Source: a virus. Taken from it: a stretch of DNA of 37,878 bases. This document shows positions 910 to 36,412 of the stretch, piece after piece. The notes below the pieces were generated by a model. That model saw only the letters and a program-made list of their open reading frames with translations. It made no database searches and was not told the origin of the DNA. Each line of letters begins with the position of its first letter. The first letter of the stretch is position 1. The position numbers and the translations under genes were made by a program. The stretch spans positions 1 to 37,878 of the IMG/VR virus record IMGVR_UViG_3300021419_000041; one strand, 5' to 3'.

Positions 910-937
910 GGTCGGTTTCCTTTCGGTTTGGCCCCGG

Positions 938-15161: not shown

Positions 15162-16055
15162 TCAGGCGGTTTCGTCGATGTCGATCTGCACGACTTTCTC
15201 GTCCTCGATGCGGGTCGCATCGAACGAGTAGTTGGCGTGCGTGCACCAGGCGAAGCTGTACTGCGGCAGCCGCGCGATGAACGCCTCATATTCGGCGCCC
15301 TTCGCCAGCCCGACGCCGGACTTGGCCCACATGAAGCAGGACCGGATGTTCGACGCGACCGACAGTCGGTTGGTCTTGATGAAGGTGACGCCCAGCCACG
15401 GGATCCGCCGCCGGGTCGCCTTGTCGCCAACGCCTTCCTCGACGAAGTCCTTCGACTTGAACTCGGTGATCTGCATCATCGCCCGCCAGCCGATCGGGCT
15501 GAGCGCGAGAAACAGTTCCTCGGCATCGGTGTCGACATCCGCCGAATCCATGATCTCGATGGCCTGCAGGATCTTGGCGTAGGTAATGTTGGTGCCGCCG
15601 TTCGCAATCTGCTGGCCGGCCGGCAGCGCAACATTCGTCGTGTCCAGGTTCTCGTCGACCGCCTTGGCGTTGCCGCCCAGCGCCGCGACGATGACATCGT
15701 CCAGGTCGCGCTTCATCGCTTCCTCGGACCGCTGCAGGTATTTCTGCGGCAGCATCCCGCCCTTCGACATCCGGACAACGTCCGGCTTGTCGATCGGCAG
15801 CGTGATGTCATAGTCGATCAGGCCGATCTGACGGCGCGTGTGCGCGATCGAGTTCAGCCGGGTCGGCTCGATCTTCCGGGTCCGCTGATTGCCGGACGTG
15901 CTGCCGACGCGGTCGAAATAGCCGTAGATGCCTTCCAGATAGTCCGGATCGGCGCGCACCGTGTCCTCGAAACGGGAATCGGTTTGCGCCGCCAGGTCGT
16001 AGAAGTCGTTTGCGAATTTCCGGCTATGGGCCGGATCCAGATCGTACTCCGCCAT
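15162..16055 (-). CDS. major capsid protein (HK97-fold, podovirus type)
   Basis: This 297-residue protein follows the scaffold region and precedes the tail tube genes. It contains an N-terminal helical arm (HSRKFANDFYDLAAQ), a central VRMSKGGMLPQKYLQRSEEA with a following helix, and a beta-rich C-terminal half (LFLALSPIGWRAMMQITEF, WLGVTFIKTNRLS), consistent with HK97-fold podovirus capsid proteins. Length also fits. I chose the ATG at 16055 because GGAGG lies 5 bases upstream; an ATG four codons earlier would place that GGAGG inside the gene. A 161-bp untranslated leader lies upstream. Confidence 0.75.
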   Translation of the reverse strand: MAEYDLDPAHSRKFANDFYDLAAQTDSRFEDTVRADPDYLEGIYGYFDRVGSTSGNQRTRKIEPTRLNSIAHTRRQIGLIDYDITLPIDKPDVVRMSKGGMLPQKYLQRSEEAMKRDLDDVIVAALGGNAKAVDENLDTTNVALPAGQQIANGGTNITYAKILQAIEIMDSADVDTDAEELFLALSPIGWRAMMQITEFKSKDFVEEGVGDKATRRRIPWLGVTFIKTNRLSVASNIRSCFMWAKSGVGLAKGAEYEAFIARLPQYSFAWCTHANYSFDATRIEDEKVVQIDIDETA

Positions 16056-16216
16056 CGGAGCCTCCATTCAAACAAGTGCCAGTTGCTCGAAAGGCTCCCC
16101 GGCTTGTCCTTGGCGGCCGCCGGACCCGTCTCGACCGCTGTCGGGGGTCGTTTTCCGTCCCGTCTTTCCGGGCTGCCAGCCGGACCCTTTCGGGCTGCCC
16201 GGCCAGAATGAGGTTG
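16056..16216 (-). promoter_or_regulatory. untranslated leader before the capsid gene
   Basis: This gap has no convincing ORF. It contains two copies of a GGCAGCCCG(G)AAAG motif on the minus strand, at 16177-16164 and 16199-16187, about 22 bp apart, and the right-hand copy can form a short CGGGC-AG-CCCG hairpin. It may hold a promoter or a processing site that raises capsid expression. No convincing -35/-10 pair was found. Confidence 0.3.
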
Positions 16217-17707: not shown

Positions 17708-17996
17708 TGATGGCCTCCTGCTGGTCGGTTTGTGCTTTCAGGATCTCGCCCAGGCCGATGCTCAGCTTGTTCAGCAGCACCAGCCCGATCCGACGCCGGC
17801 CCTCGGCTTCCGCCAGGACCAGCCCTCCACTGTCGATCGGCGCGGTCACGGGTTTCGCCACGCCGCACATGATCACCAGTTCCTCGATCGCCTCGCGCCC
17901 CTCGGGCGTGGCGTAAAACTGCTTCCACGCCTGCGCGATGCGCCACCGCCGCGACAGCCGCCGCGGGTCGATCATGCTGAAATCAGGCTGCTTCAC
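17673..17996 (-). CDS. Bbp19-like small structural-region protein
   Basis: This 107-residue protein has a RRWRIAQAWKQFYATPEGRE segment, followed by a VIMCGVAKP stretch and GRRRIGLVLLNKL. The order F-x-(S/T)PEGR, then C, then GRR-hydrophobic resembles the Bbp19-like small proteins found beside podovirus portals. I give the GTG at 17996, which overlaps the portal end by 14 bp; an ATG at 17975, seven bases after the portal stop, is an alternative and would begin MIDPRRLS. The longer ORF upstream lies within the portal gene. The role is unknown; the family call is tentative. Confidence 0.5.
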   Translation of the reverse strand: MKQPDFSMIDPRRLSRRWRIAQAWKQFYATPEGREAIEELVIMCGVAKPVTAPIDSGGLVLAEAEGRRRIGLVLLNKLSIGLGEILKAQTDQQEAINGTEDDGRIAA

Positions 17997-19617
17997 GGTC
18001 CACCATCCCCGCCGAGGCGGCGGCCTGCGCGAAGGACTGCGCCGCCCCGCCGGCGGTCGCCAGATCTTCCAGCTCGGCGGTCTGCGCCATCTGCTGATTC
18101 CGCGCCTCGCGCATCTGGTCGCGGTCACCCTCGCCGCGCAGGTGCTGCGCCGAGACGCCCATCCGCTGCACGAATTTCCGGTAGGCGGAATCGCCGTCCA
18201 GATTGTCATAGACTTCCGGACCGAAGATGTTGCCGAAGCTGGCCGAGGCGTCGATCGCCGCCAGCAGCGACCGGCCCTCGTCGATGCGCTGCTGCTGCGC
18301 CGACGGCGACGAATACACGACTTTCAGCGCCTTGCCGTCCAGCGCCTCGGGCGCCGGCGGGAAGAACTTCTCGCGCTGGAAGATGTTGAAGAAGCGCTCG
18401 ACCGACGGCCCCATCTTCTCGGCCTGCATGTTGGCGATGAACGGGCCGATGTCGCGCAGCCGCTCCTCGTCCAGAATCATCGCGTGCGTCGCGGTCATGT
18501 GCGGATCCTTCACGAACCGGAACAGCGGCACACGGAAGGCCCGCTCGATCGCCTCGCGATAGTTCAGGATCATGTCGACGCCGATGTCAGGCCGGGCGCC
18601 GGTGTTCAGCGGCGAAATCGGCTCGCTGTTCGTCGCCCAGACGGACGGCTTCATCATGTTGATGGCGTTCGCCGACGTGCGCAGCGGCTGCAGCAGCGTG
18701 TCCTCCATCACCGCCCAGGGCGGCGCGATCGCCTGCTCGGCCGATTTCAGCGTCGTCTTCGCCAGCAGCTGCAGCGACTTCACCGCATACAGCGCCTGCG
18801 CGCCCCAGCCGCGGCCATAATCGCCGTCGCCATTGGTCCACAGCCGCGAAAACACATAGGGCATCTCGTCATAGCCGCCCCGGCTGATGATCCGCCTCTC
18901 GTCCTTGTTCACCCACACCGACGCGAACGGCTTCTGCAGCTTGCCGATGCCGATGCCGCCCGGCACCTCCCGCGGGAAAACGGCATGGATCAGGCAGAAC
19001 TTTTCATCCTCCTCGCCCTCGGCGACCATCTTCGCGACCTTCTCGCCGGCCGCCGCGCCGAAGCGCTTGAAGCACAGGCTGGCCGGCCACTCGACTTCGC
19101 GGAACACCGTGTCGACGACGCCATCGGCGCCGATCGCGATCGAGACCTCGCGCAGCGGAACAAGATGCACGACAGGCAGCCGGCCGGTCCGGCTTTCGAT
19201 GAAGCTGCAGGAATTGCCATAGGTGACATCCAGCACGTCGGTCTGGAACTTCACCGCCGAAAACCGGGTCTGCGGCGAGTTGAACGCCGACAGCAGGAAT
19301 TCCTCGGCCAGATCCAGCCAGGCCGCGACCTCGCGATCGGCCATCAGCCGCCGGTCCTCGGTTTCCAGGTTGAACCAGGCGGACCCCGGATTGGTCGTCA
19401 TGCCGTAGATGCCGGCGGCGGCGATCATCGCCGCTTCCTCGCCGATATTGTCGAACAGGTGCGCGCGTTCGTTCACGCGCGGCGTCGAATCATAGGTGAT
19501 CGACGTGGAATCGGGCAGCACCCACCGCTGCAGCTCGTGCCAGCAATATTCGTGATCACGCTTGGCGGATTTCAGCTGGTCATTGCGGCGGATGATGGCG
19601 TCGACATCGGCTTCCAT
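17983..19617 (-). CDS. portal protein (T7 gp8-like head-tail connector)
   Basis: This 544-residue protein has the order and motifs of podovirus head-to-tail connectors: RDHEYCWHELQRWVLPDSTS near the N-terminus, DNIGEEAAMIAAAGIYGMTTNP, a central VFSRLWTNGDGDYGRGWGAQAL that is a hallmark of the family, then LLAKTTLKSAEQAIAPPWAV and a FVKDPHMTATHAMILDEERL helix. It forms the dodecameric ring through which DNA is packaged and ejected. Start choice is between the ATG at 19617 and a GTG one codon earlier at 19620; no strong Shine-Dalgarno separates them. It ends 14 bp inside the next gene. Confidence 0.85.
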   Translation of the reverse strand: MEADVDAIIRRNDQLKSAKRDHEYCWHELQRWVLPDSTSITYDSTPRVNERAHLFDNIGEEAAMIAAAGIYGMTTNPGSAWFNLETEDRRLMADREVAAWLDLAEEFLLSAFNSPQTRFSAVKFQTDVLDVTYGNSCSFIESRTGRLPVVHLVPLREVSIAIGADGVVDTVFREVEWPASLCFKRFGAAAGEKVAKMVAEGEEDEKFCLIHAVFPREVPGGIGIGKLQKPFASVWVNKDERRIISRGGYDEMPYVFSRLWTNGDGDYGRGWGAQALYAVKSLQLLAKTTLKSAEQAIAPPWAVMEDTLLQPLRTSANAINMMKPSVWATNSEPISPLNTGARPDIGVDMILNYREAIERAFRVPLFRFVKDPHMTATHAMILDEERLRDIGPFIANMQAEKMGPSVERFFNIFQREKFFPPAPEALDGKALKVVYSSPSAQQQRIDEGRSLLAAIDASASFGNIFGPEVYDNLDGDSAYRKFVQRMGVSAQHLRGEGDRDQMREARNQQMAQTAELEDLATAGGAAQSFAQAAASAGMVDREAA

Positions 19618-19621
19618 CACG

Positions 19622-19926: not shown

Positions 19927-21471
19927 TCACAGCACCAGCACGCCCGGACTGGCCCGCCGCTGCCGGGGAACCTCGCCGTCATGCGTGATCGCGGTCGTCG
20001 GCCAGTGCTGCTGCGCCGCACGCCGGCTCGCCAGCGAATTGTGGCCGTAGCCGTACAGCTCGCGCTCCAGCCCCAGGCCGAGACACCAGTATTGCAGCGC
20101 GTCATGGACGTGGCTGAATTCGTTCTTGTCCGGCTTGTCGTCGACGCGCTCGACCGCGCCCTGCACGTATTTCCGGTAGCGGTAGCCCGACAGGAAGCCG
20201 CGCCGCAGCATCCGGCAGTTGGGCGAAATCACCAGCCCCGGCTTCTTCGGCCCCAGGTTCGCCAGCAGCTGCTTGCGCACCACCTCGGTTCGCGTCGTCG
20301 GATCGTTGTTGCCCGGCGCAGGATCCCAGCGAACGCCGGACTGCTCGGTCATCACGCCCAGCCAGGTCCGGTCATCGGTGTCGTTGCGCTTGTGCGCCGC
20401 CGACGGGTCGCCGAAGGCGCCCACGATCTCCATCCCGGCATAGCGGTCCGACTGCAGCAGCCGCCGAAGCCGCTGGCCGAAGATCTGCGCCCCGCCCATG
20501 CCGTCATGCACCAGCTCGTCCAGCACGATCAGCTGCCCGTCGGGCAGTTCCTGGCCAATCACCACCGACGCCGTCCGCCCGGCGTCGCCGCCCAGGCTGA
20601 TCGGCACGCCGCGGACCGGCGCGAGCGCGTGCACCGTGCAATGCACGTCGTCGTCATACTCGGGATAGACCGGCTCGCCGGCGCGGCTCATCGAGATACG
20701 GTTCTCGACATGCGCGGCGATCCGGTAGTCGGTCATCTGCGGGATCATGCTTTCGTAGTAGCCCGGCCGCAGGTTCGCCAGATTCTCGGCTTCCGGGTTC
20801 AGCACCCACCGGCCGCCGGGATCCTTCACCAGCCCGCCCGGCTGCTTGTAGAAGCGGTAATTCGACTTCGGCTCATAGACGAAATCGCGGGCAAGATAGT
20901 GGTCCTCGTCGAAGCTGTTCGTATCGGCCCACATGCCGAACCAGCTGTTGCCGCCCAGGTTCGGACCCGGATAGCGGCCCCAGCGGGTCTGGATGTAGTT
21001 GAAGATTTCCTCCGGCATCAGGTCGGCCTCGTTCACGAAGACGCCCGACAGCGGCAGGCCGCGCAGCAGCCCCTTGTAGTTTTCCAGGTTCAGCTGCGCG
21101 AAGGACACCTTGACATCGACGAACACGTCGCGGCCCATCTGGCGCCGCAGGTGATGCGTCGCCGGCGGCCCCTTGGTGAATTCGCCCTTCTGCGCCGGGA
21201 ACCATTCGTGCCATGTCGGCAGCAGGTTTTCCTCGATCTCGCGGTTGGTCACGCGGAACACGCCAAAGCTCGAATAGCGGATGCCGTCGCGCGGGTTCGG
21301 CCGCTGCTGCTGCGCCGCCAGCAGGATCCGGAACAGCGCCGCCGTCGTCTTGCCGGATCCCGGCGGCCCCATGATCAGGTCGACCATGCCGCTGGCCGAT
21401 GAATCGCGCAGGAACCGGTCGGATTCCGGTCCCGGCGGAATGTAGTTGATTTCCCCGGCCCCGCCCGTCAC
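19927..21471 (-). CDS. terminase large subunit (TerL)
   Basis: This 514-residue protein is the DNA-packaging ATPase and nuclease. A Walker A motif GPPGSGKT lies at 35-42 and a Walker B-like GVFVNEAD at 142-149, with Glu147 as the likely catalytic residue. The C-terminal nuclease region begins around GGDAGRTASVVIG and ends with FSHVHDALQYW, whose Asp residues are candidate metal ligands. The GTG start at 21471 overlaps the stop of a questionable upstream ORF as GTGA. TerL lies between the small subunit and the portal, as usual. A 59-bp gap follows before the next gene. Confidence 0.85.
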   Translation of the reverse strand: MTGGAGEINYIPPGPESDRFLRDSSASGMVDLIMGPPGSGKTTAALFRILLAAQQQRPNPRDGIRYSSFGVFRVTNREIEENLLPTWHEWFPAQKGEFTKGPPATHHLRRQMGRDVFVDVKVSFAQLNLENYKGLLRGLPLSGVFVNEADLMPEEIFNYIQTRWGRYPGPNLGGNSWFGMWADTNSFDEDHYLARDFVYEPKSNYRFYKQPGGLVKDPGGRWVLNPEAENLANLRPGYYESMIPQMTDYRIAAHVENRISMSRAGEPVYPEYDDDVHCTVHALAPVRGVPISLGGDAGRTASVVIGQELPDGQLIVLDELVHDGMGGAQIFGQRLRRLLQSDRYAGMEIVGAFGDPSAAHKRNDTDDRTWLGVMTEQSGVRWDPAPGNNDPTTRTEVVRKQLLANLGPKKPGLVISPNCRMLRRGFLSGYRYRKYVQGAVERVDDKPDKNEFSHVHDALQYWCLGLGLERELYGYGHNSLASRRAAQQHWPTTAITHDGEVPRQRRASPGVLVL

Positions 21472-21746
21472 CGTCGTTCTCCGGCGCGATTCACCAGCCC
21501 GGATTCACCCGCACCCCCGCACCCCGGCCCATCGGTTCCGACCGACGCGGATCCCCGCGAAGGTTTGAAATTTCCGCAGACGCTGCCTGCCCCCCCCCTC
21601 ACGCGCGGCGCGGCGTCGCGATTTTCGCCCCCGGGGGTCGCGATCATGGGGGGTGGGGTCGGCAGGGCGGCGCGGCGGGAAGTCCGCTGACCTTTGATCA
21701 GCCGGGATAGGACCTGAAAATGCTTGCCGATCAACCGCTTAGCCAT
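21468..21746 (-). CDS. questionable ORF between the terminase subunits
   Basis: This frame encodes 92 residues: a basic helix-like start (MAKRLIGKHFQVLSRLIKGQ) followed by a Gly/Pro/Arg-rich, low-complexity remainder. Both ends are coupled to neighbours (start overlapping the TerS stop, stop overlapping TerL GTG as GTGA), which favours a real gene. Against it, no Shine-Dalgarno is seen and the composition looks like translated non-coding G+C-rich DNA. The DNA contains a nine-C run at 21590-21598. It may be a packaging-signal region that happens to stay open. Treat as unproven. Confidence 0.25.
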   Translation of the reverse strand: MAKRLIGKHFQVLSRLIKGQRTSRRAALPTPPPMIATPGGENRDAAPRVRGGAGSVCGNFKPSRGSASVGTDGPGCGGAGESGLVNRAGERR

Positions 21747-22242
21747 TGCGTTCAACTTCGTCGCGTTCAACTGGCGCATCCTCGACGACGTTAAGCTGTT
21801 GATTTCGCTCGCTTTCCACAATCGGCAGATTGCCCATCCGAAACCCGTTGCCGCCGCCGCCCTGGTCGCCGCCGATCATGATGTTGACGGCCGGAATGGT
21901 CTCGCCCTCTTCCGTGACCGGCCCGAGCTTGGGCGTCACGTATGGCGCGGCGTCGATCGCCGCCTTCCGGATGATGTCCAGCGCCTCGACCGGCTTGCAG
22001 CCCAGATACTTAGCCAGCGCCTTCGGATCCGAGCTGTAGATCTGCCCCAGCCGCATGAGCGGGTTGCCGTAATTCTGCAGCAGCACGTCACGGTAAAGGA
22101 TCGTCGACCTGGACTTGCTGCCCTTTGGCCGGCCTGGACCGCGCGGCGACGCTCCCGCTTCCGACGGCGCGACCAGTTCCGCCCCGTCGTCGGCAACCCG
22201 CTCGACCGGGATCAGGTCGAATTGCATGGCGCTATCGGTCAT
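21739..22242 (-). CDS. terminase small subunit-like DNA-binding protein
   Basis: This 167-residue protein lies directly upstream of TerL and is the likely small terminase subunit, which recognises phage DNA for packaging. It contains a basic RGPGRPKGSKSRS segment resembling an AT-hook (about residues 35-47), followed by a helical region (LYRDVLLQNYGNPLMRLGQI, EALDIIRKAAIDAAPYV) as in HTH-containing small terminases, and an acidic C-terminal tail. The start is uncertain: I give the ATG at 22242, but an upstream TTG at 22257 and an ATG at 22227 are possible, and none has a clear Shine-Dalgarno. Position and composition, rather than a strong motif, support the call. Confidence 0.6.
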   Translation of the reverse strand: MTDSAMQFDLIPVERVADDGAELVAPSEAGASPRGPGRPKGSKSRSTILYRDVLLQNYGNPLMRLGQIYSSDPKALAKYLGCKPVEALDIIRKAAIDAAPYVTPKLGPVTEEGETIPAVNIMIGGDQGGGGNGFRMGNLPIVESERNQQLNVVEDAPVERDEVERNG

Positions 22243-22300
22243 AGAATTATTGACCAATTAACAATCCCGGTTCCGCAAGCCTCGACGCCGTTGCATCCGC

Positions 22301-22551
22301 CGTTGAAGGCTGCAGCCCAGCCGCGCCGCGCCATCGCCGCCCCACTTCAACGCTTCAAAGCTTCAACGCTGGTTGTTTGTGTGTAGAGCCGGAAGCCGGG
22401 TTGCATCGCCGAGCCGCGCCAGCGGCGTTGAACCCGTCGAAGCGTTGAACGGCACCCGCCACGCCGCGCCGATCCTGACGGCAAGGCTTCGCCACCCCCC
22501 CGACCCGAATGGCGTTGCACCTCCCGCCCAGCGCGTTGATCCCGCGTTGAT
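22301..22551. repeat. cluster of CGTTGA(A) motifs, iteron-like
   Basis: CGTTGAAG occurs at 22301-22308, its inverted form CTTCAACG at 22345-22352 and 22361-22368 with a variant CTTCAAAG between them (22353-22360), so three 8-bp units stand in tandem. Forward copies CGTTGAAC follow at 22426-22433 and 22443-22450, and CGTTGAT at 22534-22540 and 22545-22551. Such clusters suit binding sites for an initiator or a regulator. No protein in the window is tied to them. Confidence 0.45.
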
Positions 22552-22691
22552 CGCTTCCCGTCAGGGGTCAGGGGTCATTGACCGGCCAGAGAACCCGCCC
22601 GCGCCGCATGACCGGTCCGGCTGGGGTCCGGGGAAGCGCCGCGCCAGACCGGCGGAATTCCACGCCCTTCGCCGCGTCACCATAAAAAAGC

Positions 22692-22736
22692 GTCACAATG
22701 ATCATTTTTTTGCTTGCGCAAAATGATCATTGTGAC
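22692..22736. promoter_or_regulatory. 17-bp-arm inverted repeat, candidate early operator/promoter
   Basis: GTCACAATGATCATTTT (22692-22708) is repeated in perfect inversion at 22720-22736, with an 11-base centre; each arm also contains the palindrome ATGATCAT. On the plus strand TTGCGC (22714-22719) and TATTTG (22737-22742) are 17 bp apart and could be -35 and -10 boxes, so the right arm would exactly fill the spacer. That layout suits repression of the early genes starting at 22795. The boxes are imperfect, so the promoter is tentative, while the repeat itself is plain. Confidence 0.5.
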
Positions 22737-22794
22737 TATTTGTTTATCTGTCGCTGACGCGACGACCGACCAACCGACCGAAGGAAACCGACCA

Positions 22795-23025
22795 ATGACA
22801 CGCTACATCGAAATCGCCTATGCCCTGCCGACCAGCGCGGACGCTTGCCACTACGGCCGCCCACGGACCGGCTGCTATGTCCTGGATACGCGCAAGCCTG
22901 GCGGATACCCGAAACGCCACAGCGGCCCGTTCGCGACATGGCGCGAAGCGCAGATCGCCGCAGCCAAGACCGGCCTTGAAATCGGCCCGATGTCCCGCCC
23001 GGAACCCGCTGCCGGGCATCGCTGA
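22795..23025 (+). CDS. 76-residue early protein, unknown
   Basis: This first plus-strand early gene encodes a small protein with Cys18, Cys27 and several aromatic residues, a GGYPKRHSGPFATWREAQIA stretch and a Pro-rich tail. No known family is recognised; the middle part looks like a compact alpha/beta fold. The ATG at 22795 is fixed by the leader GAAGGAAACCGACCA, which recurs before the next early genes. An in-frame ORF start at 22714 lies inside the operator repeat and is not used. Expression probably depends on the promoter region just upstream. Confidence 0.55.
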   Translation: MTRYIEIAYALPTSADACHYGRPRTGCYVLDTRKPGGYPKRHSGPFATWREAQIAAAKTGLEIGPMSRPEPAAGHR

Positions 23026-23123
23026 CCTTTCCGCCAGTCCCCGCGCGCCTTCCGGGGCGCGGGGATCGCGGAGCGATCAGGCTCCGAACCGACCAACCAA
23101 CCGAAGGAAACCGACCAATGACC
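23022..23123 (+). repeat. direct repeat copy 1, leader with two hairpins
   Basis: This roughly 100-bp unit spans the end of the first early gene to the start of the second and recurs almost unchanged at 23294-23394. It carries hairpin A (CCCCGCGC 23039-23046 with GCGCGGGG 23057-23064) and hairpin B (CGGAGC 23069-23074 with GCTCCG 23081-23086), then the GACC-rich leader with AAGGAAACCGACCA. No T-run follows either hairpin, so simple termination is unlikely. Confidence 0.8.
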
Positions 23124-23297
23124 AAGGAAATCCGCTATGAATACAGCACGCACCGCACCCGCGACGCCGCCGACCAAGCCCTAGACAACTATCTGGCGAC
23201 GGACATTTGCTCCGAAGCCGAACACCCGCGCGTTGAACGCAAGGGCAAGGTGTGGGCCGTCACGCTCCGCGATACCGCGCTTTCCGCCTATCTCTGA
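23118..23297 (+). CDS. 59-residue early protein, unknown
   Basis: This small gene lies between the two copies of the 100-bp repeat. It encodes a charged protein starting MTKEIRYEYSTHRTRDAADQ, with a helical middle and a KGKVWAVTLRDTALSAYL end, looking like one small alpha/beta domain. The AAGGAAACCGACCA leader defines the ATG at 23118. No family is recognised. Because it is flanked by repeats, it could have been gained or lost by recombination, or be part of a tandem duplication that diverged. The stop codon is inside the second repeat. Confidence 0.55.
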   Translation: MTKEIRYEYSTHRTRDAADQALDNYLATDICSEAEHPRVERKGKVWAVTLRDTALSAYL

Positions 23298-23394
23298 CCC
23301 TTCCGCCAGTCTCCGCGCCTTCCGGGGCGCGGGGATCGCGGAGCGATCAGGCTCCGAACCGACCGACCGACCAGAAGGAAACCGACCAATGACC
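23294..23394 (+). repeat. direct repeat copy 2, leader with two hairpins
   Basis: This is the second copy of the unit at 23022-23123. It keeps hairpin A in slightly shortened form (CCGCGCC 23313-23319 with GGCGCGG 23326-23332), hairpin B unchanged (in CGGAGCGATCAGGCTCCG) and the final leader with AAGGAAACCGACCA. Differences are mostly small changes near hairpin A and in the number of GACC units. It precedes the zinc-ribbon gene. Confidence 0.8.
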
Positions 23395-23946
23395 GAACCG
23401 ATCCTGACCCTTCGACTGCCACTCGCCCTTGTCGCGGAGATTGAGTGCCTCGCCGACCGCGGCCTGGCCGATCTCGGCGACCATCTGGATTACAGGAGCA
23501 AGCACGATTGCGACGGGGAAACCGACCGCGAGACCCTGGCGCGCGAATATGCCCGCGCCGCCGATTGCATGAACCGCTTCACCGCGGCCTTCCGGGCCAA
23601 CCGCCAGCGCGCCGCCAAGCCGCCCAAACTCTGCAGCCTTTGCGGTTCCGACGACATCGGCTTCGATGCGACGGTGGATCAGAACGACGAGCTGATCAGC
23701 CATTTCGAAGCCTACGACTGCCGCAACTGCGGCGAGGAAAGCCCGCTGCTGTACGAGCGCGACGACGACCCGGCGACATGGGGCGCGCTGCGCGACCTCG
23801 CCACGATGGACGCCTACAACACGCCCGAAGGCGAAGCCCCGACCGAAGCCTGGTCGGCTGCCCTGCTGCGCCTCGCCTGGCTCGACGCAACCCATTTCGA
23901 CCAGCCGGACGGATGGGACAGCCTCGAAGGCGGCGCGGCCGCGTGA
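23389..23946 (+). CDS. early protein with Cys4 zinc-ribbon-like motif
   Basis: This 185-residue protein has CSLC (Cys82, Cys85) and CRNC (Cys111, Cys114), separated by 25 residues with strand-like sequence, which suits one zinc ribbon. The first 75 residues form helices, including RETLAREYARAADCMNRFTA. The C-terminal part (PATWGALRDLATMDAYNT, then EAWSAALLRLAWLDATHF) is acidic and helical. A nucleic-acid or protein-binding role is plausible, but the family is unknown. The ATG at 23389 follows the repeated AAGGAAACCGACCA leader. A longer in-frame ORF upstream overlaps the previous gene and is rejected. Confidence 0.6.
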   Translation: MTEPILTLRLPLALVAEIECLADRGLADLGDHLDYRSKHDCDGETDRETLAREYARAADCMNRFTAAFRANRQRAAKPPKLCSLCGSDDIGFDATVDQNDELISHFEAYDCRNCGEESPLLYERDDDPATWGALRDLATMDAYNTPEGEAPTEAWSAALLRLAWLDATHFDQPDGWDSLEGGAAA

Positions 23947-23981
23947 TACAAACCCGACACATCGACCAGAAGGAAACCACC

Positions 23982-24302
23982 ATGATCAATGCCAGCACCA
24001 TCATCGCCAAGCACCGCGGACCCTATACGCCGGAACCACTCAGCGAAGCGAGCGAAGCCGACGCCACAATGGAAGCGATCAATGACATTCTGGACCTGGT
24101 CGGGCTGCCGCGCCAGGACCGGGACGCCATCAATGACAAGATGGAAGCCGTCGAACGCATGGAAAAGCCCGACGCCATCGAGACCGCCCGCGCTGCCGGG
24201 ATCGACATCATGGCCGATCAGCGGCACATGGTCGCCGAATGGGCCGACATCACCGCCGCGCTTCTGGCCGCCGGTGTCCCGGTCACGCGATCGCGGATAT
24301 GA
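23982..24302 (+). CDS. 106-residue helical early protein, unknown
   Basis: This protein is acidic and helical, with MEAINDILDLVGLPRQDRDA and MADQRHMVAEWADITAALLA segments, no cysteine and no membrane segment. No family is recognised. It follows the zinc-ribbon gene by 35 bp and has an AAGGAAACCACC leader before the ATG at 23982. The next reading frame could begin with ATG at 24299, overlapping this stop as ATGA, but a better start lies further downstream. Confidence 0.55.
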   Translation: MINASTIIAKHRGPYTPEPLSEASEADATMEAINDILDLVGLPRQDRDAINDKMEAVERMEKPDAIETARAAGIDIMADQRHMVAEWADITAALLAAGVPVTRSRI

Positions 24303-24388
24303 ACAGGAAAAGGGCGGCGGCTCCCGACCAGAGAACCGCCGCCCCAACCGACCAACCGGGCGCCGACCAAAGCACCCGGAAGGAAGCG

Positions 24389-24700
24389 ATGACAATGACC
24401 ATGAACGAAGGCGATTGCAAGATGACCCCCGACCAGGTGCGCGGCTGGCGGCGATCCCTCGGCCTGACCCAGCAGCAGGCGGCGGACGCCCTCGGCGTCT
24501 CGAAACCGACGATCACGCGGATGGAGGCCGGCGGCACCGTGCCGCTGACGACGCGGCTGGCGATGGCGGCCCTGGCGGCGGGGATCGGGGACTACCCCCC
24601 GGCTGCGCCGCAGCGCCTCAGAAGCCCGCTCAGGCCGGTTCAGGCGCTTTCGGCACCCGACGGACCCGGCCGCCCCGCCTCGGCCCCTGACGCTTCCTGA
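24389..24700 (+). CDS. XRE-type HTH regulator
   Basis: This 103-residue protein has a helix-turn-helix domain in its first half (MTPDQVRGWRRSLGLTQQQA followed by ADALGVSKPTITRMEAG), of the lambda-Cro/CI type, and a Pro-rich disordered C-terminus. It probably binds phage operators. The ATG at 24389 is preceded by GGAAGGAAGCG and by a GACC-containing leader like those of the other early genes. An ATG at 24299 overlapping the preceding stop is possible but would place that leader in coding sequence. It ends 61 bp inside the convergent gene at 24640. Confidence 0.7.
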   Translation: MTMTMNEGDCKMTPDQVRGWRRSLGLTQQQAADALGVSKPTITRMEAGGTVPLTTRLAMAALAAGIGDYPPAAPQRLRSPLRPVQALSAPDGPGRPASAPDAS

Positions 24701-25044
24701 AACGTCATCAGCGGGACCATCAGCCGGTCGCCCTCGATGACGCACTGTTTCAGAACAGCCAGCCGCCGCCGCAGCCCGGCCATCGCCTTGGCGTGCCGGT
24801 CTTCCTCGTCATCTTCCCAGCGCCGGACCTGCCTCCACTGATCATCCACGGGCGATTCATGCTCCGGAAACAGGACGCCGTTCATCATCACCAGCCGCGG
24901 CTGCACCGTGATCGCCGCCAGCCGCGCGATTTCGCGTTTCATGTTCTCGATAGGGCGCATCTGCATCCGATGCCGCCACCGCTCGACCCGGAAATCCTCC
25001 GCCAGCGCAGCCCGCTCATACCGCAACCGATCCTCGCCGTTCAT
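24640..25044 (-). CDS. helical protein at the end of the minus early operon, unknown
   Basis: This 134-residue protein is strongly charged and helical (RYERAALAEDFRVERWRHRM, WRQVRRWEDDEEDRHAKAMA), so coiled-coil formation is likely. No known motif is seen. The ATG at 25044 overlaps the preceding stop as ATGA. Its 3' end runs 61 bp under the convergent HTH gene, and no terminator was seen between them. It is the last gene of the operon. Confidence 0.5.
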   Translation of the reverse strand: MNGEDRLRYERAALAEDFRVERWRHRMQMRPIENMKREIARLAAITVQPRLVMMNGVLFPEHESPVDDQWRQVRRWEDDEEDRHAKAMAGLRRRLAVLKQCVIEGDRLMVPLMTFQEASGAEAGRPGPSGAESA

Positions 25045-25355
25045 GTCCGCGCCTCCCGTTCCTGATCCGGCTGATACCACATCAACGCTTCGGACGCGGT
25101 CAGCGGTCGCGGCTGCTTTTCCATAAGCAATAACCGCATATGCGTCGGCGTCAGGTGCGACCGGCCCAGCATCTTCGCGATCTGGTAATTGATTATCTCG
25201 GCGACAGGGTCATAGATGAACGGGTTTGGGCCGCCCGCAATCCCGGCCAGCCCGTCCAGCATTTCCTCGACGACACCGCGCGGCTCGACAAGGTGACGCC
25301 ACAGATGTTCGGGAACCTCGGCGACCTCGTCGATCCAGATTTCATGGTCCGCCAT
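25041..25355 (-). CDS. 104-residue acidic protein, unknown
   Basis: This protein begins MADHEIWIDEVAEVPEHLWR, has a helix around DPVAEIINYQIAKMLGRSHL and an RPLTASEALMWYQPDQER end. No cysteine, membrane segment or recognised motif is present. The start at 25355 overlaps the stop of the next upstream gene as TGATG, and the end overlaps the next gene as ATGA, so it belongs to the tightly coupled cluster 24640-26938. Function unknown. Confidence 0.5.
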   Translation of the reverse strand: MADHEIWIDEVAEVPEHLWRHLVEPRGVVEEMLDGLAGIAGGPNPFIYDPVAEIINYQIAKMLGRSHLTPTHMRLLLMEKQPRPLTASEALMWYQPDQEREART

Positions 25356-25567
25356 CACGCCGCCTCGGCCGGCGAGAAGCCGCGCAGCCAGGCAGCGACC
25401 TCGATGCAGGCGGCCCAGCGGTCCATCCCGCCCAGACTGATCACGGCCACCATCGCCGACGCGGCCTTCGCCATGCCGCCCGCGGACAACTGCCCTTCCT
25501 GCGCCAGATCCAGCGCCCGGCCGAAGGCGTTGAACGTGCTGATGTCCCGCTTGTGGATCGCATCCAT
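25355..25567 (-). CDS. 70-residue protein, unknown
   Basis: This small protein has a basic start (MDAIHKRDISTFNAFGRAL) and an Ala/Met-rich hydrophobic middle (GMAKAASAMVAVISLGGMDR) that could be amphipathic rather than membrane-spanning. The ATG at 25567 overlaps the upstream stop as TGATG; a GTG one codon earlier is an alternative. No family is recognised. Coupling at both ends supports a real gene. Confidence 0.5.
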   Translation of the reverse strand: MDAIHKRDISTFNAFGRALDLAQEGQLSAGGMAKAASAMVAVISLGGMDRWAACIEVAAWLRGFSPAEAA

Positions 25568-26354: not shown

Positions 26355-26938
26355 TCCGGCGCCCCCGGCACGTCGACCAGCCCCAGCCAGTTGTCATGCT
26401 CGATCCGGTAAAGCCGGTCATACTGACCATCACGCTCGGCCAGGAACACCTTGCCTGACGCAAGCTTCATGGCGACGCGGCCGGAATACATGATCGTGCT
26501 TCGCGCATTGATTCCGAACAGGATCCGCTGCCCTATTTCCGGCCAGTCCTTCGCCGCCTCGCCCTCGGCCGCCTCGCCCTCGGCCGGCGGCGGCGCGGAC
26601 GTGTAGAAGGCGTTGAAATCGCCGTCGGTCATCACCGTGACATACCCGCCCGACGCACGGACCAGCCAGTCGCCATACGGAACACGGATATGATCTTCAA
26701 TGCCGGACACGATGAAGACGACCGCCGGCTTCCCGGCATCCTCGCTGTAGTAGTACGAAACAATCCATGCCGGCCCTTCGACCGGCATATCTGCCTGCGC
26801 CCGCCACGCCTGCACCCGCCGGGCCTTGCCCAGCTTGCGCCCACGCGCGGCGCTGTCGCCGCGCAGCACGAAGTCATGCGCCCCGGCCTTCGCCGTGGCA
26901 TCGACCAGCACCGTCTCCGTTGTCTCGCTATTGGTCAT
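26351..26938 (-). CDS. 195-residue protein, unknown
   Basis: This protein has a basic N-terminal segment (GRKLGKARRVQAWRAQADMP), a beta-rich region (WIVSYYYSEDAGKPAVVFIV), a duplicated acidic GEAAEGEAA linker and a C-terminal beta-rich region ending LYRIEHDNWLGLVDVPG. It may bind nucleic acid or protein, but no family is recognised. An AAGGAGG Shine-Dalgarno lies 6 bases before the ATG at 26938, so it can be translated independently even though it overlaps the helicase gene by 11 bp. Confidence 0.5.
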   Translation of the reverse strand: MTNSETTETVLVDATAKAGAHDFVLRGDSAARGRKLGKARRVQAWRAQADMPVEGPAWIVSYYYSEDAGKPAVVFIVSGIEDHIRVPYGDWLVRASGGYVTVMTDGDFNAFYTSAPPPAEGEAAEGEAAKDWPEIGQRILFGINARSTIMYSGRVAMKLASGKVFLAERDGQYDRLYRIEHDNWLGLVDVPGAPE

Positions 26939-28808
26939 CCCTGTCCTCCTTTTCCGTCGCGATCAGCCCGTCCAGCGGGATCAGCGTCGCGCGCGCCTTG
27001 AAACCGTCGAAACTCAGCGCCGACGGGGACGGCTTCGCCCCCTCGATCGAACGCAGCGGCTGGATCCAGTTGCCATTCGTGTCCGACCGGCCGGACCACT
27101 TCGATTCACGGAAGATGTCGGCCAGGCCGCGGTGATTGTTCGCCACCGCCAGCACCGGCCGCCCGGTATGGCCCGGCCGCGTGATGCGGACGCCGATCTT
27201 CTGCAGCTGGTTGTTGGCCGTCTGCTGGTCGATGTCTGTCATCGGCTGGTCGGGATCGCCGACGGCCTTCTGGATCAGGCTGACGACATTGACCCGCTCG
27301 CCGCCGCGAATGATCGGCGCCGCCGCCGTCAGCAGATAGTCCAGGCAGCGGTTGCCGTCGGCCATTTCGTCGTCCAGCTCCGACAGCTGGCCGGGCTGCA
27401 TCCGCTCGGCCCAGTCGTTCAACCGCCCTTCGTCGGGCAGCCGGTCGAACAGCAATATGTCGGCCAGCGCCAGCAGCGTGCCGAACTGCATCGCCGCCCG
27501 CGCCGTGTGGCCCGCCTCGCGCAGCCGCCGCTCATAGCGGTCGACGCATTCGTCGACATCGGGCCAGCGGTCCCACAGACGCCGCCGCAGCATCCGCCCG
27601 AAGCCTTCCAGCGTCTCCCGCGAATGCCGCGGCGCGGGCTTCGACGTGTCCAGCCGGCCGAGTTCCAGGATCGCCAGCCGCGACCGGTCCTGCGCCTGCA
27701 GCGGCGGCGGCAGGATGGAACTGAACAGGAAGGCCGACCGCGCCGTGAACTCGGATCCCTCATGGTCCGCCCCGCCGCGCAGCACCACGCCGCCCGACGC
27801 CGCCTGGCGGGCCAGCTTGACCACCGCATCCGCGCGGCGGTTGTCGGCGTCGGCCTCCATTTCGTCGATCGCCACCGGGATCGCCCGATGCCCGACCTTC
27901 TGCCAGATCCCCGCCGCCGTCGTGTCGCTGACCGACACGATGCCGCGCGCGAAGATCCGCTCGACCAGCTGCTGCAGCGTCGACTTGCCGGTCCCCTTGT
28001 CGCCGGTGATCCAGACCGCCGGCCGCCAGTTCAGCGCCCCGCACAGCATCGCCGCCCCGATCCAGCCCAGCAGCAGGAACGGATCGGCCTCGCGCCGGAA
28101 GTTCCATTGCCTCAGCACCGCCAGCAGATCATGCCCCCAGCGGTGATCGCAGGCTTCCTCGGCCGGACGCGGCTGCGCCGGTTCCGCCGGATAGACGTAC
28201 TTGCCGAACCCGCCCGGCGGGTGGAAAGCGATCGGCCGGCCGGCATCGACCTCGGCGTCGGCGCCGATCGGGCGCACCGCGTAGCCGTCGCCGGCATGGA
28301 CGATCAGCTCGTCGGCATCGCCGCGCCACGCCCCGACGCCGCGCAGCCGGCCCTTCATGTCCCAGATCCCGCGGCGGCTGCATTCGTACATCAGAACCTG
28401 GCCGCAGCGTTCCCAGTCCATGCGCAGTTTCGTGTTGTCGTTCTTCTGCGCCGTCGCCCAGGCGCGATAGGCGAAGGCGATCTCCATGCCGAACAGGGCG
28501 GCCAGGTTGTTCTTCGTGTGATCGGCGGCTTTCAGATCCCGCAGCTGGTGCAGCGTGTCCATGTAGTAGTAGACACCGGCGAACGTCCCCAGCGGCTTCA
28601 CCGGCAGGCCGACCGGCGCGCGGAAGTCGAAGGCGGGATCCTCGATCCCGTCATCGCCGCCGCCCTGGCCGTAGCCCTCGGGAAAGTCATGCGACGGCCC
28701 GTCGTCATCGGCGGGCGCGGCGGCAAGCGGCGGGTTCAGCGGCCGCGCATTCGCCACCGTCTGCCGGATCCGGTAGACCCCATCATCATCAGGCCCGGCC
28801 CCGGTCAT
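26928..28808 (-). CDS. replicative helicase-like SF3/D5-type ATPase
   Basis: This 626-residue protein carries Walker A GDKGTGKST at 269-277, within WITGDKGTGKSTLQQLVERI, and a Walker B-like VAIDEME around 312-318, followed by ARSAFLFSSILPPPLQAQDR with a likely arginine sensor. The pattern suits D5/SF3-like phage helicases that unwind DNA at the fork. The first 50 residues are low-complexity and the C-terminal part (about 500-626) contains helical and strand elements of unknown role. No primase motif is seen; a separate TOPRIM primase lies in the same operon. The ATG at 28808 overlaps the methyltransferase stop as ATGA. Confidence 0.7.
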   Translation of the reverse strand: MTGAGPDDDGVYRIRQTVANARPLNPPLAAAPADDDGPSHDFPEGYGQGGGDDGIEDPAFDFRAPVGLPVKPLGTFAGVYYYMDTLHQLRDLKAADHTKNNLAALFGMEIAFAYRAWATAQKNDNTKLRMDWERCGQVLMYECSRRGIWDMKGRLRGVGAWRGDADELIVHAGDGYAVRPIGADAEVDAGRPIAFHPPGGFGKYVYPAEPAQPRPAEEACDHRWGHDLLAVLRQWNFRREADPFLLLGWIGAAMLCGALNWRPAVWITGDKGTGKSTLQQLVERIFARGIVSVSDTTAAGIWQKVGHRAIPVAIDEMEADADNRRADAVVKLARQAASGGVVLRGGADHEGSEFTARSAFLFSSILPPPLQAQDRSRLAILELGRLDTSKPAPRHSRETLEGFGRMLRRRLWDRWPDVDECVDRYERRLREAGHTARAAMQFGTLLALADILLFDRLPDEGRLNDWAERMQPGQLSELDDEMADGNRCLDYLLTAAAPIIRGGERVNVVSLIQKAVGDPDQPMTDIDQQTANNQLQKIGVRITRPGHTGRPVLAVANNHRGLADIFRESKWSGRSDTNGNWIQPLRSIEGAKPSPSALSFDGFKARATLIPLDGLIATEKEDRDDQ

Positions 28809-29404
28809 CCACGCCCCGCCCAGGACAGTTGCGGATGGCCGCGCCAGCCGTGATCGCGGCAGAACACGAACCAGGCGTGATGATTGCGCGGGCTGGCCGA
28901 GCCTTTCGGCAGGTTCACCCACCTGATCCGGCTGGTCAGCTCGATCTTGAAGCGGAACATCGGATGCTCGCGCAGCCATTTCCGCTTTTCGGCGCACATG
29001 AAATCGTTCGGCAGCAGCATCGCCGCCGCGCGGATCTTCATGTTCGACAGCGCCGACGACAGGAACCCGTCGGCCAGCGAATAGGGCGGGTTGGTGATGA
29101 TCGCGGTGCAGCCGTTCGGCGGATCGTCGGCCGGGCCGAACTCGGTGAAATCGACCCGCCCGTCCAGCGGCCAGGTGTATAGCTCGATGTCCGTCGACGT
29201 GACCTCGCGGCAATACCGCTGCAGCACGCGGGCCATGTCGCCATTGCCCGCCGCCGGCTCCCAGACCAGATGCTGCGCCAGATGCGCGCCGACCTCGGAC
29301 CGGATCAGCGCCTTCGTCACCCATTCCGGCGTCGCATAGAAGTCCCCCGGCATCCGCCGGTAGCCGCTTTCCCCGTAGCGCGTCGATGCCAGCGCCGCCG
29401 ACAT
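28805..29404 (-). CDS. N6-adenine (Dam-like) DNA methyltransferase
   Basis: This 199-residue protein has motif I WEPAAGNGDMA at 48-58 (AdoMet binding) and motif IV NPPY at 105-108, with a FYATPEWVTKALI start typical of short phage adenine methyltransferases. It probably methylates adenine in a short target, protecting phage DNA from host restriction or marking it. The start at 29404 overlaps the stop of the tiny membrane peptide by TGATG, and a longer upstream ORF is rejected because it covers that peptide and the Lar-like gene in another frame. The target sequence is unknown. Confidence 0.75.
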   Translation of the reverse strand: MSAALASTRYGESGYRRMPGDFYATPEWVTKALIRSEVGAHLAQHLVWEPAAGNGDMARVLQRYCREVTSTDIELYTWPLDGRVDFTEFGPADDPPNGCTAIITNPPYSLADGFLSSALSNMKIRAAAMLLPNDFMCAEKRKWLREHPMFRFKIELTSRIRWVNLPKGSASPRNHHAWFVFCRDHGWRGHPQLSWAGRG

Positions 29405-31281: not shown

Positions 31282-31640
31282 TCGATCACGCCTCCGTCTT
31301 TCAGCTCATGCGTGAAGCCCCAGTGATCCAGCATGTCTTCCAGCCGGTCAGCGTAGGGCGGCAGGTAATCGATCGCGCGCCCCTTGGCGGCCAGGTCGAT
31401 GACCGTCAGCCGCTCGCGCGATACCTTGATGCGCATGTCGCACTCGACCGACCCGTCAATCGATCGGCCGGAACAGAAGTCGATCTGCGTTGACCGCACA
31501 TCCTTCACGCGGATGATCGACAGGTGCATCGCCAGAATGTTCACCGTGGCCGGCGGCAGGAAAGCGCGGATCGGCGGCGACAGCGCACTCTCGAAACTGA
31601 TCCGCATCACGCGGTTTGCGAATTGAAGCCGGATCTTCAT
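31278..31640 (-). CDS. 120-residue protein, unknown
   Basis: This protein begins MKIRLQFANRVMRISFESAL and has alternating strand-like segments (AMHLSIIRVKDVRSTQIDF, DMRIKVSRERLTVIDL) and an acidic end. It may bind nucleic acid, but no family is recognised. It is coupled by ATGA to the primase gene upstream and to the next gene downstream, so it belongs to the replication and modification operon. Confidence 0.5.
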   Translation of the reverse strand: MKIRLQFANRVMRISFESALSPPIRAFLPPATVNILAMHLSIIRVKDVRSTQIDFCSGRSIDGSVECDMRIKVSRERLTVIDLAAKGRAIDYLPPYADRLEDMLDHWGFTHELKDGGVIE

Positions 31641-32716
31641 GCGGGTTGCCCCCGTTGCAGCAGGTCATTGATGTCCTTGAAGCCCTCGGGCGGGCGCAGG
31701 TCGAAGACCCGCCGCCCCTGGCGCATGTGCGCCTCGGCCGCGCGTGCGAAGGCGGCCCGCGCGGTGTCGTTGTCGTCGTTCTCGCCGCCCAGATAGACCG
31801 TGCCGATCGTCTCGGGCAGCTCGACATTCGCCATGTTCGACAGGCTGATCCCGCACAGGATCCGCAGGTCAGGCGCGCCGCAGGCCAGCGCCAGCGCATC
31901 CTCGACGCCCTCGACGATCGCCACCGCCGACCCCGGCGCGGCCTCGGCCAGCGACTTCCCGTCGGCCCCGCGCCAGATCCGGATCGCGCCGCCCTTGTGT
32001 TCGCCCAGCGCCTTGCGCGGCGGATCCAGCGGCGCCTTGGTCCACTTGCCCGCGGCGTCGCGGTCCAGCCAGATCCGGTGAATGCCGGCGATGCGCCCGC
32101 CGGGTTTCAGGATCAGGCCGATCAGCGCCGGGAAGCGCAGCCAGGTTCCGTCATCGGCCTTGCCGGCGACCAGGCCGGGATGGAAGCGCAGGCTGCGCGG
32201 CTGGCGGCCCAGCCGGTCAAGATAGATGCCCCGCCCGCGCAGGTAGAATTCCGCCGGCGTGCCTTTCAGCGACGCCTCGGCCTCGTTCCAGTAGCGGATG
32301 GCCCGCTCGCGCCTGGCGCGCTTGCGCTCGACGTCGGCCTGCCGTTCCCTTTCCGCCTTCCGCGCCGCGGCCTGGCGGCGCTGTTCCAGTTCGCGCGGAT
32401 CCAGATTGTCGATGCCCAGCCAGCGCCGCGACCATTTCAGCGCCTCGCCCTTGTCGCCATTCGTGACCATGTAGGCGACCAGGTCCAGCGCGTCGCCGCG
32501 CGCCAGCGGCCCGGCATCGCCGAAATGCGACCAGATCCCGCGCTTGCCCTGCGCCAGCGAGACGCGCAGCCCGTCGCCCAGGCCGCCATGCTTGCGCTTC
32601 GCCTCGACCCATTCGGATCCCTCGCGCCGCCCCAGCGGCAGCAGCTCGCGGCACAGTTCCGCGATCCGGTCCGACAGCCCGCCGACAATGACCTCGATCG
32701 GAACCGGCCCGCTCAT
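31637..32716 (-). CDS. TOPRIM-domain DNA primase
   Basis: This 359-residue protein is a phage primase of the TOPRIM type. The TOPRIM glutamate lies in AVAIVEGVEDALAL (Glu269) and the Asp pair in YLGGENDDNDTARAA (about 314-317). The N-terminal part has the W-S-H-F-G-D and GDALDLVAY pattern of phage primase modules but lacks the four-cysteine zinc site of bacterial DnaG. A charged helical linker (about 107-140) joins the two halves. It should make primers for replication. The ATG at 32716 overlaps the methyltransferase stop as ATGA. The longer ORF upstream is a shadow in the methyltransferase gene. Confidence 0.75.
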   Translation of the reverse strand: MSGPVPIEVIVGGLSDRIAELCRELLPLGRREGSEWVEAKRKHGGLGDGLRVSLAQGKRGIWSHFGDAGPLARGDALDLVAYMVTNGDKGEALKWSRRWLGIDNLDPRELEQRRQAAARKAERERQADVERKRARRERAIRYWNEAEASLKGTPAEFYLRGRGIYLDRLGRQPRSLRFHPGLVAGKADDGTWLRFPALIGLILKPGGRIAGIHRIWLDRDAAGKWTKAPLDPPRKALGEHKGGAIRIWRGADGKSLAEAAPGSAVAIVEGVEDALALACGAPDLRILCGISLSNMANVELPETIGTVYLGGENDDNDTARAAFARAAEAHMRQGRRVFDLRPPEGFKDINDLLQRGQPA

Positions 32717-34101
32717 GCCGCCGCCGCCCGCGCCGCCGTGTCGAAGAAGGCGAAGGTCAGCGCCTCCGCCGTGCGGCAGGGCACGGCGTTGCCGATCTGC
32801 TTCTTGATCTCGGTCGTGTTGCCCTTGAAGACGTAGTCCGGCGGGAACGACTGCGCCCCGGCCAGCTCGTGCTTCTGCAGCATCCGGTAGCGGATATCGA
32901 CCGGCGGGCCGGCATCGGGTTCGATCAGGCCGAAGCGGTCCTTCGTCGTCACGGTGTCCATCGGTTCCGAAACCGGCTTCGCGGTCTGGCCCGAGCCACT
33001 GCCGTAGTAGGGGGCGAGGAGCGGTTCGACGAGGCCCGCCGCGCCATTTCCCGGCACGGTTGGCGCCGGATCGTCGATGTTGAGCACCCGCGGCTGCTGA
33101 CCAGTCCTGTCGCCGAAGATCGGGGTCATGAACGGCTGGATCAGCGACTGCGCGCCCAGGGTCGCGATGGTCGGAACCGGCTGATCCACCGGCCGCGCGG
33201 TCGAGCCGCCGTGCTGACCCAGCACCATCGGCTGCACCAGGCCGACATGGTTGCCGCTGGTGGTCACGGTGGGCAGCGGCAGGTCCAGCCCGCGCGAGGC
33301 GGCATGATTGCGCAGCACGATCAGGAAGGGTTCCGCGGACGCCCCGCTGTACTTCACCAGCCCGTGCGCGATCCGTTTCAGCGTGTTCGGGCTCAGCGGT
33401 TTCTTGCGCGTGAAGATGCTTTCCGATGGCACCGACCAGTCGATGATCTCCCGCGCCGGCCGCCAGGGCAGCAGGCCCAGACTGTCGGCCCGGTCGCGCG
33501 GCGCATGGCTCGGCGAGGGCCACCGGACCGGCCCGACGCGGCTGCCCAGCAGGAAGAACCGCCGCCGCGTCGTGGCATCGCCATAGTCGGCGCAGTTCAG
33601 GATGCGGACTTCCAGATCGAAGCCGATGGCCCGGAGCGCCGCGCACCATGCGATGTAGTATTCGCCCTTGCGCGCGGGATCAGGCTTGCCGGTGCTGTCG
33701 TCCACCGGTCCCCACTCCATGAACTCAGGCACGTTCTCGATGCAGATGCGATCGACCCTGAGCGAGGTGCACCAGGTGACGATGCACCACGGATCCATGC
33801 GCTGCTGATCGCCGGTCGGCTTGCCCGCCCTTGCCCGGCTGTGATGCGTGCAGGTCGGTGACGCCATCAGCAGGTCGAGCCGCCCTTCCGGCACGATCAG
33901 CTCGGGCCGCGCGGTCGAGATATCGACGCAGTGATGCCGGGCTTCGGGATGGTTCGCGGCATGGGTCTCGATCGCCACCGGCCAGTGGTTCACACAGACC
34001 AGTTCATGCGGGATGCCGAGACGGGTCAGCGCCGCGACCGCGCCCGACGACGTGCCGCCCGCGCCGCAGAACAGATCGGCGATCAGGACCGGCCCGCTCA
34101 T
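32713..34101 (-). CDS. C5-cytosine DNA methyltransferase with repeated recognition segments
   Basis: This 462-residue enzyme carries the C5-methyltransferase motifs: FCGAGG (11-16, AdoMet binding), SPTC (Cys84, catalytic; PTC instead of the usual PPC), ENV (122-124), RRRFF (179-183) and QIGNAV (435-440). Between motifs VIII and IX the target-recognition region contains four similar segments, about residues 275-396, each of the type (D/E/Q/L)P-x-x-T(V/I), then L(V/I)(Q/E)P. It would methylate cytosine in specific sites, giving phage DNA protection against restriction. The ATG at 34101 overlaps the upstream stop as ATGA. Specificity cannot be read from the sequence. Confidence 0.85.
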   Translation of the reverse strand: MSGPVLIADLFCGAGGTSSGAVAALTRLGIPHELVCVNHWPVAIETHAANHPEARHHCVDISTARPELIVPEGRLDLLMASPTCTHHSRARAGKPTGDQQRMDPWCIVTWCTSLRVDRICIENVPEFMEWGPVDDSTGKPDPARKGEYYIAWCAALRAIGFDLEVRILNCADYGDATTRRRFFLLGSRVGPVRWPSPSHAPRDRADSLGLLPWRPAREIIDWSVPSESIFTRKKPLSPNTLKRIAHGLVKYSGASAEPFLIVLRNHAASRGLDLPLPTVTTSGNHVGLVQPMVLGQHGGSTARPVDQPVPTIATLGAQSLIQPFMTPIFGDRTGQQPRVLNIDDPAPTVPGNGAAGLVEPLLAPYYGSGSGQTAKPVSEPMDTVTTKDRFGLIEPDAGPPVDIRYRMLQKHELAGAQSFPPDYVFKGNTTEIKKQIGNAVPCRTAEALTFAFFDTAARAAAA

Positions 34102-36152: not shown

Positions 36153-36412
36153 TTTTCGTGCTCCGTTGTTACCTCAATTCCAGAATTGTTCGCGCTTGTG
36201 TGTCATTTTCCCATTGCATTGACTTTCGATCCGTGTCACTTCTGACGCAGATCGACTGACCCGATCCCCCTCGACAGCCGATCCACCCCCGCCGGCGGTA
36301 ACGAACGCCCCGCCGGCGGGGGGACCGACCGACCGACCGACCAAACGGAAGCCCGGCGGCCGCAGCGATGATCCTCCCCGGTCGCTGCGGCCGCCGGCGG
36401 GAGGCTTCAGAC
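36153..36412. promoter_or_regulatory. non-coding leader between nuclease and excisionase genes
   Basis: No gene was found here. It contains GTGTCACTTCTGAC (36233-36246), similar to the GTGTCAATTCGTGAC operator candidate at 35103, two copies of CCCCGCCGGCGG (36287-36298 and 36308-36319), five tandem GACC units (36323-36342) and the 14-bp-arm hairpin at 36355-36395. An imperfect TTGACT (36217-36222) may belong to a plus-strand promoter. The AT-rich part near 36180-36225 is a likely promoter zone for the nuclease or the integrase unit. Confidence 0.4.
36355..36395 (+). promoter_or_regulatory. long leader hairpin before the excisionase-like gene
   Basis: GGCGGCCGCAGCGA (36355-36368) pairs perfectly with TCGCTGCGGCCGCC (36382-36395) around a 13-base loop. 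It ends just before the GGGAGG Shine-Dalgarno of the excisionase-like gene. It has no T-run, so it is more likely an RNA stability or translation-control element than a terminator. Confidence 0.5.

Follow-up and report, generated by a model that had tools for sequence, protein, structure and literature searches.

A duplicated hairpin-bearing leader unit that looks like a gene-start module in a small-gene operon of a tailed phage

Gene content of the window and the rightward operon

The stretch of DNA analysed here over its whole length (the window) is the IMG/VR virus record IMGVR_UViG_3300021419_000041, which comprises 37,878 bases. Judging by the gene content of the window, the virus is a tailed, temperate phage (Table 1). 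Nearly all of its genes are directed leftward; the exceptions are a short operon at 22795-24700 and the integrase region at the right end, both of which are directed rightward. The host is probably an alphaproteobacterium, because bacterial genomes with matches to the integrase, and those with the best matches to TerL, are largely of this class, the TerL relatives being just 30-39% identical.

Table 1. Genes and sequence features of the window with their coordinates
Feature	Position	Strand	Description
Tad2-like protein	451-909	-	152 aa; PF11195, E 2e-26
Fourth exact AAGGAAACCGACCA	909-922	-	ends in ATG of Tad2-like gene
Internal virion protein	5793-9335	-
Major head protein	15165-16067	-
Portal-type connector	17986-19620	-
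TerL	19930-21471	-
Twin dyad AATGATCATT	22697-22706 and 22722-22731		upstream of gene A
Hairpin-less partial copy of unit	22765-22799	+	RACC run, GAAGGA, start of gene A; 34/35 identical (97%)
ORF A	22795-23025	+	76 aa; no family
Leader unit, copy 1	23022-23123	+	A stop codon to B start
Hairpin 1, copy 1	23037-23066	+	12 pairs, one mismatch, UUCC loop; -26.1 kcal/mol
Hairpin 2, copy 1	23069-23086	+	CGGAGC/GCUCCG, loop GAUCAG; -11.9 kcal/mol
(RACC)4 run, copy 1	23087-23102	+
AAGGAAACCGACCA with SD	23104-23117	+	before gene B
ORF B	23118-23297	+	59 aa; no family; low-confidence predicted fold
Leader unit, copy 2	23294-23394	+	B stop codon to C start
Hairpin 1, copy 2	23309-23336	+	12 pairs; -21.8 kcal/mol
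Hairpin 2, copy 2	23339-23356	+	-11.9 kcal/mol
(RACC)4 run, copy 2	23357-23372	+
AAGGAAACCGACCA	23375-23388	+	before gene C
ORF C	23389-23946	+	185 aa; zinc-ribbon resemblance weak, below cutoff
Near copy AAGGAAACCACC	23970-23981	+	slightly shorter; before gene D
ORF D	23982-24302	+	106 aa; no family
Leader of gene E	24312-24357	+	strong GC hairpin, unrelated to unit hairpins, then AACCGACCAACC
ORF E	24389-24700	+	103 aa; HTH_3 (XRE-type) regulator, HTH_3 2e-9; last gene of operon
Primases	26931-29324 and 31640-33649	- (both)
Tyrosine integrase	36682-37875	+

No usable family for the products of ORFs A-D was found in PADLOC, Pfam, PHROGs or NCBIfam, and no paralogy was revealed among A-E. The base composition of ORF B (GC3 0.76 vs. 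GC2 0.46) matches that of its neighbours. For B and C, the quality of the predicted structures did not permit a structure search (pLDDT 59 and 40, respectively). Relatives of gene B were absent from the phages, plasmids, viral contigs and sampled genomes searched, and those of gene C from viral contigs, phages, plasmids and 150 genomes belonging to the order of a distant TerL relative.

Upstream of gene A, a long inverted repeat (22692-22736; stem -24.5 kcal/mol) holds both AATGATCATT dyads, which are 25 bp apart and located in an AT-rich patch. These twin dyads are the probable operator/promoter region of the rightward operon; a search for consensus or hexamer promoters revealed none.

Two copies of a leader unit before genes B and C

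A preliminary description of this DNA had reported a near-identical repeat of about 100 bp, with two hairpins in each copy, on both sides of a gene for 59 residues, and all of these elements were recovered in our analysis. The two copies surrounding ORF B are 93% identical over their full length (E about 5e-39 in a comparison within the record), and the longest exact stretch common to them is 51 nt (23044-23094 vs. 23314-23364). There are four substitutions between them and two indels, one of 2 nt in the left arm of hairpin 1 and the other of 1 nt before the SD site; the changes are located in this arm, in the first bases and in the RACC run. Each copy is composed, in this order, of hairpin 1, hairpin 2, a (RACC)4 run and GAAGGAAACCGACCAATG. 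The leader of gene A, overlooked in the preliminary description, corresponds to the 3' third of the unit and has no hairpins.

The homology between the copies begins at the stop codon that closes the upstream gene and extends as far as the downstream start, ATGACC, the identity beyond the unit being at background level (25-43% over 20-50 nt). This confinement of near-identity to the non-coding stop-to-start interval supports the view that the unit is a leader module. It also argues against a plain recent duplication without function, in which a small gene would have brought a copy of the leader with it on insertion, the near-identity would be due only to recency and the hairpins would be a by-product of GC-rich intergenic DNA; the duplication ends exactly at a stop and a start codon. 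On the other hand, neither the unit nor its core had any match in the phage, plasmid, viral-contig and genome-contig collections (from which the nearest records were possibly left out). As no relative carrying the unit was found that could demonstrate its conservation, selection on it would look the same as a recent copying event, which is in keeping with a plain duplication.

The arrangement of one gene flanked by 100 bp of homology also brings to mind a recombination boundary, at which homologous leaders would permit loss or exchange of the enclosed gene. An analogous case is that of mycobacteriophage LRRHood, where 29-bp repeats flank extra genes (PMC3029335). However, no relative with a different gene between the units, or with a single unit, was found, and exchange of the gene as a cassette, which the preliminary description had suggested, has no support here. 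We consider it quite improbable that the unit serves this purpose, and recombination between the leaders might be a side effect rather than their function.

Folding of the unit

Both hairpins are predicted to fold in both copies; they are GC-rich and have no U-tracts. As there is no U-run after the GC stems and no site resembling an intrinsic terminator on the + strand at 22200-24800, the hairpins are not intrinsic terminators, in agreement with what had been proposed from the sequence before. On the other strand, a terminator-like hairpin followed by TTTCC is located between D and E (24311-24345) and faces the convergent leftward genes.

The substitution of C to T in the left arm of hairpin 1 gives a G-U pair. 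Compensatory changes were not found between the two copies, and a comparison of these two sequences alone is thus no proof of selection on the fold. Compared with dinucleotide shuffles, the whole unit folds better, with z-scores of -2.8 (copy 1) and -1.9 (copy 2), which for GC-rich DNA is no more than moderately exceptional. The modest scores and the lack of covariation are both in keeping with a functionless duplicate.

Strong intercistronic stems with an SD site close behind them resemble the processing sites for RNase III or RNase E of the kind known from the early genes of T7, where hairpins are cut or protect the ends so that separately stable pieces arise. In T7, similar RNase III hairpins are repeated between the early genes, near the next ribosome site, and this also applies to the hairpins described here, whereas the latter have shorter stems and occur two per junction. 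There is an alphaproteobacterial precedent in the puf operon, in which intercistronic hairpins give differential stability. The stems of classical RNase III sites are longer than the 10-12 bp available here, however, and we regard processing of this type as unlikely to be the function of the unit.

The predicted opening of the SD site is moderate (probability of being unpaired about 0.5 in both copies). One may suppose that it depends on translational coupling: a CCUUYC motif just past the stop codon would pair with the downstream GAAGG, and the terminating ribosome would open this pairing. The pairing does occur in the minimum-energy fold of isolated copy 2, but when the stop-codon region was blocked in the gene context the opening of the SD sites hardly changed (from 0.53 to 0.60 and from 0.47 to 0.45). 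Coupling through an anti-SD sequence is therefore unsupported and, in our opinion, very unlikely.

The 3' end of the unit is shared with other gene starts

The 14-mer AAGGAAACCGACCA is present in exactly four copies in the 37.9 kb, each of them being the ribosome site of a gene: those of ORFs A, B and C and of a Tad2-like gene at 909(-). Together with the near copy before gene D, the 3' element of the unit is thus common to A, D and the Tad2-like gene in addition to B and C; that D and the Tad2-like gene have it had likewise been overlooked in the preliminary description. The only other match in the window within two mismatches is at 7678(-), where a gene start was not found; 0.10 matches with up to two mismatches would be expected in the window by chance. 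The 14-mer is absent from about 25 other likely gene starts of the window.

The fourth exact copy lies 22 kb from the operon and on the opposite strand. The PF11195 domain occupies the C-terminal part of the Tad2-like protein, and its 65 N-terminal residues are without explanation. The name of PF11195 comes from a Thoeris anti-defence protein, and an anti-defence role of the gene product is only suggested, since the family is broad. The nearest Tad2-like genes of named phages stand in other gene contexts, and their leaders were not informative.

This distribution bears on the origin of the unit. A plain duplication of the leader would not account for a 3' element common to three further genes, one of them 22 kb away on the other strand, nor for an unrelated hairpin that fills the same position before gene E. 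We therefore consider a functionless duplication to be possible, though not likely.

It also bears on the kind of RNA element that the unit may represent. For non-coding leaders that are not terminators a role in RNA stability, processing or translation is the most plausible, and this part of the preliminary description, which had proposed the first two, still holds. It had also proposed put/nut-type antitermination, in which the RNA would modify RNA polymerase, and a nascent transcript with two adjacent hairpins and no U-tracts would suit such a role. But the units are two adjacent copies within an operon rather than a single one near a promoter; the + strand at 22200-24800 has no terminator-like sites downstream of them; and it is the end with the ribosome site, not the hairpins, that is shared most widely. 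A scan of 4 kb (21500-25500) against Rfam gave nothing above threshold. Antitermination thus appears extremely improbable.

Distribution of (RACC)n runs

Five runs of (RACC)3 or longer were found in the window, all on the + strand, and four of them are located just upstream of an SD site and a start codon, namely those of genes A, B, C and E. The other phage and prophage loci that were fetched, 386 kb in total, contained no such runs, and (RACC)3 was not found in the fetched loci of TerL relatives. Runs of other tetramers were absent or nearly so in the same comparison of the window with the 386 kb. At 36288-36400, two very strong GC hairpins surround a (GACC)5 run upstream of the integrase gene and a small HTH-like (possible excisionase) gene.

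A search of viral contigs for the pattern (RACC)3-SD-ATG revealed at least 119 other stretches, many from unrelated phages; the open frames that follow them are mostly as long as ordinary genes. Such leaders thus appear to arise repeatedly, and their recurrence at real gene starts suggests a generic leader function. Some viral contigs carry several of them. A published description of (RACC)n-before-SD leaders was not found in the literature searched. That these leaders are specific to phages cannot be claimed, as their absence from 120 cellular genomes (0/120) is not significant for the number of bases searched.

In other phages, (RACC)n leaders do not as a rule have hairpins beside them (p<=0.05 in 6 of 91), so a hairpin abutting (RACC)n was rejected as a general two-part signal for them. 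This counts against the view that the unit as a whole is a leader module.

A putative gene-start module

Taking these data together, we give about an even chance to the reading that the unit serves a small-ORF operon as a gene-start (leader) module, intercistronic and duplicated, whose hairpins would insulate or stabilise the mRNA. In the mRNA, the upstream stop codon would be followed by two GC hairpins, then by the C/A-rich, little-structured (RACC)n stretch and lastly by a strong Shine-Dalgarno site about nine bases upstream of the AUG. The hairpins may shield the flanking cistrons from exonuclease or serve as processing sites, and they may insulate the ribosome site from the upstream RNA; the outcome would be strong, independent production of each small protein. 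The operon would be an early one, with its own HTH protein E acting as repressor at the twin dyads; insertion of a copy of gene B, or of the leader, would have produced the duplication. The only moderate opening of the SD site counts against this reading, making it less clear that the hairpins keep the site open; given this and the failure of the coupling model, the mechanism is one that we infer.

Alternatively, the hairpins could be RNA operators, one per cistron, for protein E, which would then bind both RNA and DNA and shut down transcription as well as translation of a candidate anti-defence island. The autoregulator Aca2 reportedly binds both RNA and DNA. The loop of hairpin 2 (GAUCAG) and the dyad AATGATCATT have GATCA in common, perhaps by chance, and we find this possibility very doubtful.

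Comparison with known systems

The unit looks like a duplicated gene-start module resembling those known from a few actinobacterial phages. The closest known system is SAS/ESAS of Cluster K and EF phages, to which the unit would be similar in its working, not in its sequence. The SAS/ESAS are conserved repeats that contain the SD and precede a subset of genes, with a supposed role in expression, and in Cluster K an inverted-repeat element is located just upstream of about half of the SAS (PMC3203893; PMC7302621; PMC11373665). For the 17-bp imperfect repeats of ESAS, a hairpin structure has little support, and promoters may be located in them (PMC11373665). In both cases one sequence including the SD is found at several gene starts of the same genome. 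However, there are four exact copies and one near copy here and 10-19 copies there; the consensus GGGATAGGAGCCC / GGGAAAGGACCCC is not matched, AAGGAAACCGACCA having just the SD core in common with it; and the upstream part consists here of two GC hairpins, with no hexamer promoter found. If the start element marks genes that are regulated together, start-associated repeats, known from phages of actinobacteria, would also occur in a phage whose hosts are probably alphaproteobacteria, in a version that is predicted to form real hairpins.

In its layout the operon is similar to acr-aca operons, which consist of small ORFs with a terminal HTH gene and have one or two inverted repeats before the first gene (PMC9410906). 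The operon described here likewise ends in an HTH gene, and a twin dyad lies upstream of gene A, where a consensus promoter was not found. The likeness is limited to the layout: no known Acr or Aca homologue emerged among A-D in PADLOC, Pfam, PHROGs and NCBIfam, and gene E was assigned to HTH_3, not to an Aca family.

In archaeal viruses, anti-defence genes are marked by common regulatory sequences of early genes (PMC11065993). Similarly, the common upstream sequence joins here unrelated small genes, one of which belongs to an anti-defence family, but the sequence is a promoter there and a leader with a ribosome site here. Considering the acr-aca-like layout together with the leader shared with a gene of an anti-defence family, ORFs A-D can be regarded, by their organization only, as candidate anti-defence genes. 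If the genes with the start element are regulated as a set, it is the phage itself that groups the unknown genes A-D with the Tad2-like gene, which would provide a short list of candidate anti-defence proteins.
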